Shown one piece after another: positions 53,287 to 55,817 of a DNA stretch of 64,000 bases (position 1 is the first letter of the stretch; each line of letters starts with the position of its first letter). The notes under the pieces are model-generated. The model was not told where the DNA came from. It saw only the letters and a list, made by a program, of their open reading frames with translations, and did no database searches. The position numbers and the translations under genes are program-made. The DNA is taken from contig NZ_JAIWHV010000001.1 in the NCBI RefSeq assembly GCF_020177375.1, positions 682,001 to 746,000 of the forward strand. Direction: 5' to 3'. Source of the stretch: Saliphagus infecundisoli. GTDB lineage: Archaea > Halobacteriota > Halobacteria > Halobacteriales > Natrialbaceae.

Positions 53287-53862
53287 ATGGGGGACCTCGC
53301 CGACCGCCGCGGGCTCGAGACCGACGTCTACGAGCCCGCCGAGGACTCCCGGCTGCTCGCGAGCGTCGCCGTCTCCCGGCTTGCGGACGCACGGCGAGTC
53401 CTCGAGGTCGGCACTGGCTCGGGGTACGTCGCCGAGCGGATGGCCGAGGAGACCGGTGCCCGGGTGATCGCCTCGGACGTCAACCCCCATGCCTGTGTGA
53501 GCGCGCGCGAGCGGGGTGTCGAGGCCGTTCGGGCGGATCTCGTCTCTCCCTTCGCAGACGGCGCGTTCGACGCCGTCGTCTTCAACCCGCCGTACCTCCC
53601 GACGGACCCCGATAACGAGTGGGACGACTGGATGGAGCGGGCGCTCTCGGGGGGTGAGTCGGGCCGGGAGGTGATCGAGGCGTTTCTCGAACGCGTCGGG
53701 CGTGTGCTCACCTCCGACGGGCGGGTCCTCCTGCTCGTGAGCAGCCTCGCCGGCGTCTCGGAGGTCGTCGAGCGAGCGGGCGAGGCCGGCTTCAGCGCTG
53801 TCGCCCGCGCCGACGAGTCTTACCCCTTCGAGACGCTGACCGTCGTCGAACTCTTTTACTAA
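53287..53862 (+). CDS. HemK2/Mtq2-type glutamine methyltransferase
   Basis: The 191-residue Rossmann methyltransferase has VYEPAEDSRLLASV (14-27), SAM motif EVGTGSGYVAERMA (40-53) and the catalytic NPPY at 100-103 (VFNPPYLPTDPDNEWDDW). This short form without a PrmC N-domain matches the HemK2/Mtq2 group that methylates the GGQ glutamine of release factor aRF1. Trm112, its usual partner, is at 47259. It begins at the base after the ksgA stop. Confidence 0.86.
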   Translation: MGDLADRRGLETDVYEPAEDSRLLASVAVSRLADARRVLEVGTGSGYVAERMAEETGARVIASDVNPHACVSARERGVEAVRADLVSPFADGAFDAVVFNPPYLPTDPDNEWDDWMERALSGGESGREVIEAFLERVGRVLTSDGRVLLLVSSLAGVSEVVERAGEAGFSAVARADESYPFETLTVVELFY

Positions 53863-54660
53863 CTATCCCCTCCGGATCCGGGGACAGACCACCAGCCGGG
53901 CCCGACCCGCACCGTCGGCCAGATCGAACGCCAGTTCGAGAGGCTCGTCATCGCCCAGTCGGAGCCGGACCGCCTCGTCGGGGAGCACTCGATGGATGGC
54001 CTCCAGATACGACAGCGAGAACGTCGATCTCGACGGTTCGGTCGGGGGCCGCTCGAGCCCCTCGAGATCGGACTCGGGGACGGTCAGGGACATCTCGTCG
54101 GTGTCGCCGTCGGCCGCGGCGACGAGCGCGGGGTCGTCCGTGACCCCCAGCGTGAGGTGGTCGGCGAGCGTTCCCGCGGCCCGGATCGCCGAGCCGACCG
54201 TCTCGCCCTCCGTGTGGACCGCCGCCCCGTCCATCGAGAACGCTTCGAGGTCGGGCGGCTCCCGGATCGAGTCGGGATCGAGGAGGCCGATGGCGTACTC
54301 GAGTCCCTCGGCCGCGAGCCGGAGCCGGCCGTCGGGATCGAGCCACAGCCGGATTGGCCCGCGAGGAGCGACCGAGAGCGCGTCGTCGATCCGGGAGAGA
54401 TCGATCCCGAGGGTCCGGCCGTCGCTCCGGTAGGTGTCGAAGGCAGCGGGTTCGAGTTCGACGCTCGCCGCGGCGACGGTCGCCGGACCGATCGCCGAGA
54501 TCCCCAGTCCGTCGGGAGCGAGGCGGAGCCGGCACTCGGAGACGACGCTCCCGACGGCCTCGAGGGTCGTCGAGAGCGTGTCGGCCGAGCAGACGAGTTC
54601 GACCGGAGGTTCGTCGTCGTACTGTTCCGTTCGCGTCGGTCGGGTGTCGGTCGTGGTCAT
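53863..54660 (-). CDS. Divergent PCNA-like DNA sliding clamp
   Basis: The 265-residue protein aligns along its length with haloarchaeal PCNA. Matching blocks are ADTLSTTLEAVGSVVSECRLRLAPDGLGI near 26, DLSRIDDAL near 88, GLEYAIGLLDPDSIREPPDL near 117, DGDTDEMSLTVPESDL near 183, STFSLSYLEAIHRVLPDEAVRLRLG near 210 and the end CPRIRRG. It differs by an about 20-residue N-terminal tail (MTTTDTRPTRTEQYDD) and many substitutions. It could be a second clamp or a clamp-like regulator. The convergent stop abuts that of the HemK2 gene. Confidence 0.8.
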   Translation of the reverse strand: MTTTDTRPTRTEQYDDEPPVELVCSADTLSTTLEAVGSVVSECRLRLAPDGLGISAIGPATVAAASVELEPAAFDTYRSDGRTLGIDLSRIDDALSVAPRGPIRLWLDPDGRLRLAAEGLEYAIGLLDPDSIREPPDLEAFSMDGAAVHTEGETVGSAIRAAGTLADHLTLGVTDDPALVAAADGDTDEMSLTVPESDLEGLERPPTEPSRSTFSLSYLEAIHRVLPDEAVRLRLGDDEPLELAFDLADGAGRARLVVCPRIRRG

Positions 54661-54918
54661 GATGGCGGGACCCTCGACCGACGGAGCAACGGCTATCCGT
54701 GCGGGGTTCCACCCGACGGTGGGGGCAGCCGCCTCCGCGTTTCGATCGGCCGGGCGATCCTGGCAGGGAAACCGGCCGATCGCGTCTCGGATCCCGGAAC
54801 GACGTACTCGCCCGGACCGTATAATCGTTATGTCGATATGCTTGGGTGTTCGAGGGGGATAATCCGATATCAGTTATCTATATATGACTCAATCAGATAT
54901 CGTAACCTGAAACGGGTT
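54661..54918. other. AT-rich promoter region
   Basis: The first about 120 bp are ordinary GC-rich intergenic DNA. From about 54820 to 54918 the composition becomes AT-rich and contains several GATAT motifs and a TATATAT element. See the separate entry for the paired GATATC sites. Confidence 0.5.
54866..54901. promoter_or_regulatory. Paired GATATC sites flanking TATATAT
   Basis: GATATC at 54866-54871 and again at 54896-54901 are exactly 30 bp apart. Their flanks (CGATATCAG and, reading the other way, CGATATCTG) form an inverted pair. TATATAT at 54879-54885 lies between them, 34-40 bp before ATG 54919. The layout suggests a repressor pair around a promoter (inference). Confidence 0.5.
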
Positions 54919-55476
54919 ATGTCTACCAACGATCGATCTCGCGGGATCCTGACCCCGTCCGACCGCGCGTACCTCCGGGGCGAGTACGAACCGGGGAGCG
55001 TCCAGTCCGAGCGGAACACTCGCGAGCGGATCCGTGAGCGGGTCTTCGAGTCGCTCCGGGACTTCGAACTCCTGATCGAACACCTCCCCGAACGCGACCG
55101 GGGCCTTGTCTTCGAGAAGCGTCTCGAGGAACTCGACGGTCCCGAGGCGTTCGACGCGCTCGTCGCGGCGATGGCCTTTCTCTATCGGGGCATCGAGGAC
55201 TCCGACGCCGACGTCGAGGAGGTGCTCCGGGAGGGGGTCGCGCTGGCGGAGGCCGACCGCGACCGTGCGGTCTCGGTCGAGTTCGAGCGAACGTTCCACG
55301 CGCTGTCGGGCGAGGAGCTGCTCCGTCGGCTCGAGGACGGCGAGACGCTGTCGCTTTCCGAACTCGCCTACCTCCAGCGAAGCGACGACGTTCCACGAGG
55401 AGAGCTGGCCGACGCGCTCGCGAGCGAGAAGCGAGTCGAGGACGGCCGGATCCAGTCGCGGGTGACCGACTTCTAG
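54919..55476 (+). CDS. Conserved haloarchaeal protein of unknown function
   Basis: The 185-residue soluble, highly charged protein starts MSTNDRSRGILTPSDRAYLRGE. It continues SERNTRERIRERVFESLRDFELLIEHLPERDRGLVFEK, mostly helical, and ends in KRVEDGRIQSRVTDF. I recognise the start pattern (G-I-L-T/S-P-x-D-R-x-Y-L-R-G) from haloarchaeal proteins annotated only as unknown. No enzyme motif is visible. It is behind an unusual AT-rich promoter with paired GATATC sites. Confidence 0.72.
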   Translation: MSTNDRSRGILTPSDRAYLRGEYEPGSVQSERNTRERIRERVFESLRDFELLIEHLPERDRGLVFEKRLEELDGPEAFDALVAAMAFLYRGIEDSDADVEEVLREGVALAEADRDRAVSVEFERTFHALSGEELLRRLEDGETLSLSELAYLQRSDDVPRGELADALASEKRVEDGRIQSRVTDF

Positions 55477-55619: not shown

Positions 55620-55817
55620 ATGTCCGCGCTTCGGTCTGCCTTTTTCGATTGGAATCTGAACCGAGTGGTGAGGGTTGCTGTGAGCGTTACTGCAGTCTTC
55701 CTCGCAACTCGACTTACTGATGGGTTACTTGTGGGACTTGGAGTAGTAGTCGCACTGGCCATAGTACTCGATGTTCCGTGGTGGCTGTACGACCGATACG
55801 CGCAGTCAGACAAGTGA
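55620..55817 (+). CDS. 65-residue membrane protein with low GC
   Basis: ATG 55620 opens 65 codons: MSALRSAFFDWNLNRVVRVAVSVTAVFL, then a second TM stretch (LTDGLLVGLGVVVALAIVLDVPWWLYDRYAQSDK). Two TM helices with a cytoplasmic basic start are likely. Codon use is plainly less GC-rich than its neighbours (many third-position A/T). A TATA-like element is upstream. It may be a recent arrival; function unknown. Confidence 0.6.
   Translation: MSALRSAFFDWNLNRVVRVAVSVTAVFLATRLTDGLLVGLGVVVALAIVLDVPWWLYDRYAQSDK

Follow-up and report, generated by a model that had tools for sequence, protein, structure and literature searches.

A second, divergent sliding clamp of Saliphagus infecundisoli and its head-to-head partner gene

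The window, a stretch of 64,000 nucleotides of Saliphagus infecundisoli (contig NZ_JAIWHV010000001.1, positions 682,001 to 746,000), carries a gene for a PCNA-like sliding clamp that differs from the haloarchaeal type at many positions. The question raised by this locus is whether such a clamp is remarkable in itself, and whether it stands alone. The first-pass annotation had taken it to be the main novelty of the window, a divergent clamp outside any replication or repair operon in a group thought to live with one canonical PCNA.

The second clamp and its canonical counterpart

The clamp gene (PCNA2; 53863–54660, minus strand) has a single possible start giving the full-length product of 265 residues. 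Homology to PCNA extends over residues 22–263. The product matches NCBIfam NF002222 with E = 2.6e-49 and 168 bits, below the curated cut-off of 207 bits that marks a canonical haloarchaeal pcn, and falls in a separate clade of the clamp tree. Pfam PCNA_N is matched at 20.6 bits (cut-off 20.3) and PCNA_C at 14.9 bits (cut-off 23). The PCNA of H. volcanii (3hi8) is matched with E = 3.6e-40. The AlphaFold model (pLDDT 90.6; TM 0.94 to 3ifv) predicts an intact two-domain PCNA fold. The trimer-interface residues GDTD and the neighbouring strand are kept in the alignment; the ring itself is putative. The N-terminal tail, residues 1–20 (MTTTDTRPTRTEQYDDEPPV; 54601–54660, minus strand), is modelled at pLDDT 51–67, predicted to be disordered and poorly conserved among relatives. 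The C-terminal PRI motif reads CPRI. The clamp homology, the tail of about 20 residues and the PRI motif had all been read from the sequence beforehand, and all three stand: the first by NF002222, 3hi8 and the fold at TM 0.94, the second by the low model confidence of residues 1–20, the third in the form CPRI.

The canonical pcn of the same genome, the presence of which had been proposed as a check, lies on another contig (G000:C22:87070–87795), and the window clamp is thus the second, divergent one. The two products are 41% identical; the canonical clamp is 87% identical to that of the nearest module-bearing relative. At least two clamp matches occur in about 113 of 394 sampled Halobacteriales genomes (about 29%, hand count), and clamp genes are also found on haloviruses, phages and plasmids. 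A publication of 2012 (PMC3404096) had already reported second clamps in haloarchaea. The single canonical PCNA assumed as the haloarchaeal norm is therefore wrong or at least incomplete, and the mere presence of a second clamp is, because of these extra copies and that report, neither remarkable nor itself a discovery. A recent review (PMC7776575) gives most euryarchaea a single clamp and names Thermococcus kodakarensis as the sole euryarchaeon with two.

Compared with canonical haloarchaeal PCNA (H. volcanii HVO_0175 type), the second clamp keeps the fold, the strands of the trimer interface, the interdomain loop layout and the PRI motif, but is only about 40% identical, evolves several-fold faster, and possesses the N-terminal tail and a partner. 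The PIP pocket and connector loop are altered in the partner-linked clamps: N43 to T in 28/45, E119 to P in 39/45, A241 to S in 24/45, and F221 replaced in most (Q, A or T). The general frame is retained despite these changes. Cys at A241 is confined to the window clamp.

In the clamp tree, 42 of the 45 partner-linked clamps, the second clamp of the window among them, group with full support in a clade that excludes canonical, viral and plasmid clamps; the tree of haloarchaeal clamps called for by the first-pass annotation thus gives the second clamp a clade of its own. The partner-linked clamps of genomes G013, G225 and G229 fall outside it, although a tree uniting all 45 is not rejected (p-AU 0.478). 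As a separate observation, in one genus the clamps that look most canonical (L008 and L030, in G150 and G226) branch beside the second-clamp clade and not with the other canonical clamps.

The partner gene and its linkage to the clamp

The partner was found by tblastn of the window's open reading frames against the loci of the nearest non-canonical clamps. One other gene recurs at those loci, head to head with the clamp. In the window it occupies 54919–55476 (plus strand) and encodes 185 residues with an Arg-rich conserved N-terminus. No family was matched in Pfam, NCBIfam and PHROG searches. A profile search of the 394 genomes gave 44 full-length matches of 197–322 bits (44 genomes, about 11% or one in nine, of many families), followed by a steep drop to paralogues, which match mostly the first 150–180 residues of the profile model only. 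Identity among partners is 53–67% (alignment A3). The clamp adjoins the partner and is divergently transcribed from it in 46 of 46 loci, namely the 44 full-length matches, G411 and a decayed pair in G191, with a gap of 102–465 bp. To place the clamp outside any replication or repair operon was therefore wrong or incomplete, an obligate head-to-head partner having been overlooked; the second clamp holds as an observation, and most of the interest lies in the missed partner gene and its operators.

Named relatives were retrieved with the partner alignment. In this collection 27 of 32 partner matches are full-length and tagged; a divergent clamp accompanies 27/27 of these and 0/5 of the tagless partner-family matches. 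It shares genomes with the 394-genome collection and serves as a check, not as a fully independent sample. Carriers include Halopiger goleimassiliensis (nearest to the window), Halovenus rubra, Haladaptatus salinisoli, Halolamina, Halorubrum xinjiangense, Halosimplex, Halobaculum, Natronococcus pandeyae, Halomarina, Halovivax asiaticus, Halorussus aquaticus and Halomicrococcus gelatinilyticus. In the reverse direction, the best non-canonical clamp relatives, selected for their similarity to the clamp when the partner had not yet been recognised, turned out to carry it. Among eleven other extra clamps of the same family, an intact partner is nearby in none (0/11). Ten of these fall outside the pair clade; the eleventh, in G087, lies inside it and is truncated. 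Since the truncated clamp adjoins the last residues of a partner, the two were lost together in this genome. At L130 (G191:C1, around 83042–83350) clamp and partner are both decayed.

Clamp and partner distances are correlated in a mirror-tree comparison (r = 0.79; 0/2,000 permutations). In close pairs omega is 0.16–0.36 for the clamp and 0.10–0.26 for the partner, against 0–0.10 for canonical clamps. Decay, which had been considered for the clamp, is not borne out for the family, omega being well under 1; the window copy is less clear. Against its nearest relative the window clamp shows omega 0.59 at dS 0.8, a weak estimate at such distance, and it alone has Gly at position 58 (the Asp40 position), Asp being present in 44/45 and in all other relatives. 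On account of both features the window copy may be relaxed.

The spread of the pair is patchy (44/394 genomes), Natrialbaceae are scattered on the partner tree (7 changes), PCNA genes occur on haloviruses and plasmids, and the H. gelatinilyticus copy of the pair is on a plasmid. A viral or plasmid clamp, domesticated or itinerant, in a mobile cassette without specialised host function would account for these features. It is nevertheless quite improbable, given that the pair clamps keep to their own clade apart from viral and plasmid clamps, that partner homologues are absent from the phages and viral contigs searched, that no conserved mobile genes lie nearby, and that the genes are under purifying selection. 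Viral origin as the direct source is rejected on the clamp tree and the absence of the partner in the phages and viral contigs. A known anti-phage defence system is likewise rejected, since among PADLOC models the partner matches no more than a BrxC fragment at 12.9 bits.

No third conserved neighbour is present across loci, and a larger operon is ruled out. The HemK2/Mtq2-type methyltransferase gene convergent with the clamp (53287–53862, plus strand; NF011527, 309 bits) is a locus-specific neighbour outside the module. A MutS neighbour is confined to six related genomes. The partner adjoins an S-adenosylmethionine synthetase gene (named by eye) in the window and in H. goleimassiliensis; this shared neighbour suggests vertical descent there. 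Between the two genes in the window lies an open reading frame of 65 aa (55620–55817, plus strand) with a weak TatC-like match only. A hetero-trimer or work with a special polymerase had been suggested beforehand as possible roles of the clamp; Y-family polymerase occurs in one copy in 80/80 genomes, so co-occurrence with it has no power for the latter. A partner-family homologue is also found at 209–532 of Haloferax volcanii pHV2 (NC_001375.1), where the gene table shows no gene.

Promoter palindromes and the C-terminal tag

The shared intergenic region carries two 17-bp palindromes. Operator 1, the upstream one, is TAATCCGATATCAGTTA (54860–54876), at −58/−59 from the partner ATG in 44/45 promoters. 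Operator 2 is TAACCTGAAACGGGTTA (54903–54919), at −16 in 44/45; its final A doubles as the first letter of the partner ATG. Between them a TATA-box-like element of the partner promoter, CTATATAT (54878–54885, plus strand), was read from the sequence, and a similar AT-rich element is in the equivalent place in most relatives. The intergenic regions carry TAAYCYGWWWCRGRTTA twice, at a spacing of 43 bp in 35 cases and of 42 bp in 9. Both palindromes are at their fixed places in 44/45 promoters versus 0/4,500 dinucleotide shuffles, a count that spans related, not independent, sequences and overstates the number of events. The window genome (4.5 Mb) has only one further operator site within 2 mismatches. 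At one locus (L142, G002:C4) the operators are displaced upstream by about 215 bp from their usual place, and GGTCAGGTGACGTGGTCCG-like repeats are present between them and the partner gene.

A palindrome of the TAATC-N7-GATTA type covers the own ATG, in the equivalent place, of about 15 of 20 paralogues, which are tagless. A conserved palindrome in the own promoter, the mark of an autoregulated repressor, is accordingly found in 44/45 pairs and in about 15/20 paralogues. An operator-first search with TATAATC-N7-GATTATG gave 52 sites in 394 genomes (reversed control, 0), of which 46, when coordinates were compared by hand, immediately precede a partner-family gene. Because of the palindromes at the paralogues' own ATG and these 46/52 sites, the partner family is most likely autoregulatory. 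Separately, a gene of 269 aa at L210 and L211 (G358:C2:1098853 and G275:C2:1124521) has a paralogue-type palindrome at its start codon. This gene is 2.8 kb from a partner-family paralogue, is seen in one genus and resembles a DUF2797 protein by eye; it may be a second target.

The structure model of the partner is too poor (pLDDT 58) for a meaningful PDB comparison, and no recognisable DNA-binding domain or HTH family appeared in Pfam and NCBIfam searches. For this reason DNA binding by the partner is argued from the operators and the arginines. R6, R8, R16, R37, R39 and R41 are conserved and common to paralogues, and K+R make up 21% of residues 1–45 versus 10% afterwards; such an N-terminus would fit DNA contact. 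The low-confidence fold and missing domain are what a different arrangement would predict, in which a general regulator binds the palindromes and the partner, as an enzyme or adaptor recruited by the clamp, just shares the regulated promoter. That arrangement is improbable: such palindromes occur almost only at partner-family genes (46/52), which argues for family autoregulation rather than a global regulon.

The partner ends in a PIP-box-like tag, QSRVTDF (55453–55473, plus strand), conserved in orthologues. The motif Q[SA]x[VM]Tx[FY] is at or near the C-terminus in 45/45 intact partners and closes a variable, low-confidence tail; a PIP-like motif is within the last 30 residues in 0/20 paralogues. 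Against the PIP box consensus QXXhXXaa (as given in PMC4929162), the Q, the hydrophobic V/M and one F/Y are present in 45/45, and the second aromatic is missing, usually because the protein stops before it. The hydrophobic place is Val, not Leu, Ile or Met, in most members. The tag is PIP-like and putatively clamp-binding.

With a tag of this kind at or near the C-terminus of 45/45 partners, the pair might instead be a clamp and its inhibitor, the partner acting mainly, as p21 or TIP do, by filling the PIP pocket of either clamp, second or canonical, and keeping other clients out, with the palindromes as routine autoregulation. Thermococcus TIP, a small clamp-binding inhibitor described in PMC4929162, is a precedent. 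By itself this explanation leaves the dual operator of fixed spacing unaccounted for, as well as the Arg-rich N-terminus common to tagless paralogues, and is rather unlikely.

Proposed reading and relation to known systems

Clamp and partner form a two-gene module, marked by linkage, tag, dual palindromes, co-evolution, purifying selection and joint decay. The module is read, with slightly better than even confidence, as a specialised second clamp with an autorepressing clamp ligand that would limit the second-clamp ring. The partner would belong to a haloarchaeal family of DNA-binding autorepressors and would bind a sliding clamp through its PIP-like tag. Seated on both palindromes over the shared divergent promoter, it would keep second clamp and partner low. 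Engagement of its tag by a clamp would couple repression to clamp abundance or loading. The cell would then make only limited amounts of a specialised clamp ring with no housekeeping duty, probably used in DNA repair or stress replication. Binding of partner to palindromes, binding of tag to one or both of the two clamps, the direction in which regulation runs and the role in the cell are all put forward from sequence comparison. A more specific version, held tentatively and at less than even confidence, makes the partner a clamp-sensing repressor: an undescribed autorepressor family would have gained a PIP tag and a clamp gene, and in the resulting feedback circuit the amount or DNA-loaded state of a dedicated second clamp would directly set its own transcription.

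PCNA2 of T. kodakarensis (TK0582) is likewise a second clamp in a euryarchaeon, dispensable according to the available text of PMC3984812; likened here by description, it differs in that no dedicated divergent partner is mentioned in that text. Other extra haloarchaeal clamps are the second PCNAs of N. magadii (phage PhiCh1), H. jeotgali, H. borinquense and H. californiae; the available text of PMC3404096 mentions no partner or operators for them, and the PhiCh1 clamp falls outside the pair clade in the tree. The partner resembles, in its terminal PIP-like tag, archaea-specific proteins with a (putative) terminal PIP motif, which are set apart by description, not being described as encoded beside a clamp in the available part of PMC4929162. 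Autoregulated type II toxin-antitoxin pairs likewise consist of two genes with a palindromic operator over their own promoter, but the genes of the present module are divergent and not co-directional, one product is a sliding clamp, and no toxin family is matched. No description of the clamp-partner pair was found in the open-access library searched, and the module is provisionally regarded as undescribed.

In this module gene regulation may be wired to a sliding clamp, and the module draws attention to a family of likely autorepressors that is widespread and unannotated, together with its operator. Carriers include Halorubrum xinjiangense, Haladaptatus salinisoli and Halovivax asiaticus, which would open euryarchaeal clamp specialisation to genetics.

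At one further locus (L074:9854–12167, in G275:C1) PCNA2 is divergent from the partner and is followed by a co-directional canonical pcn, all contiguous.
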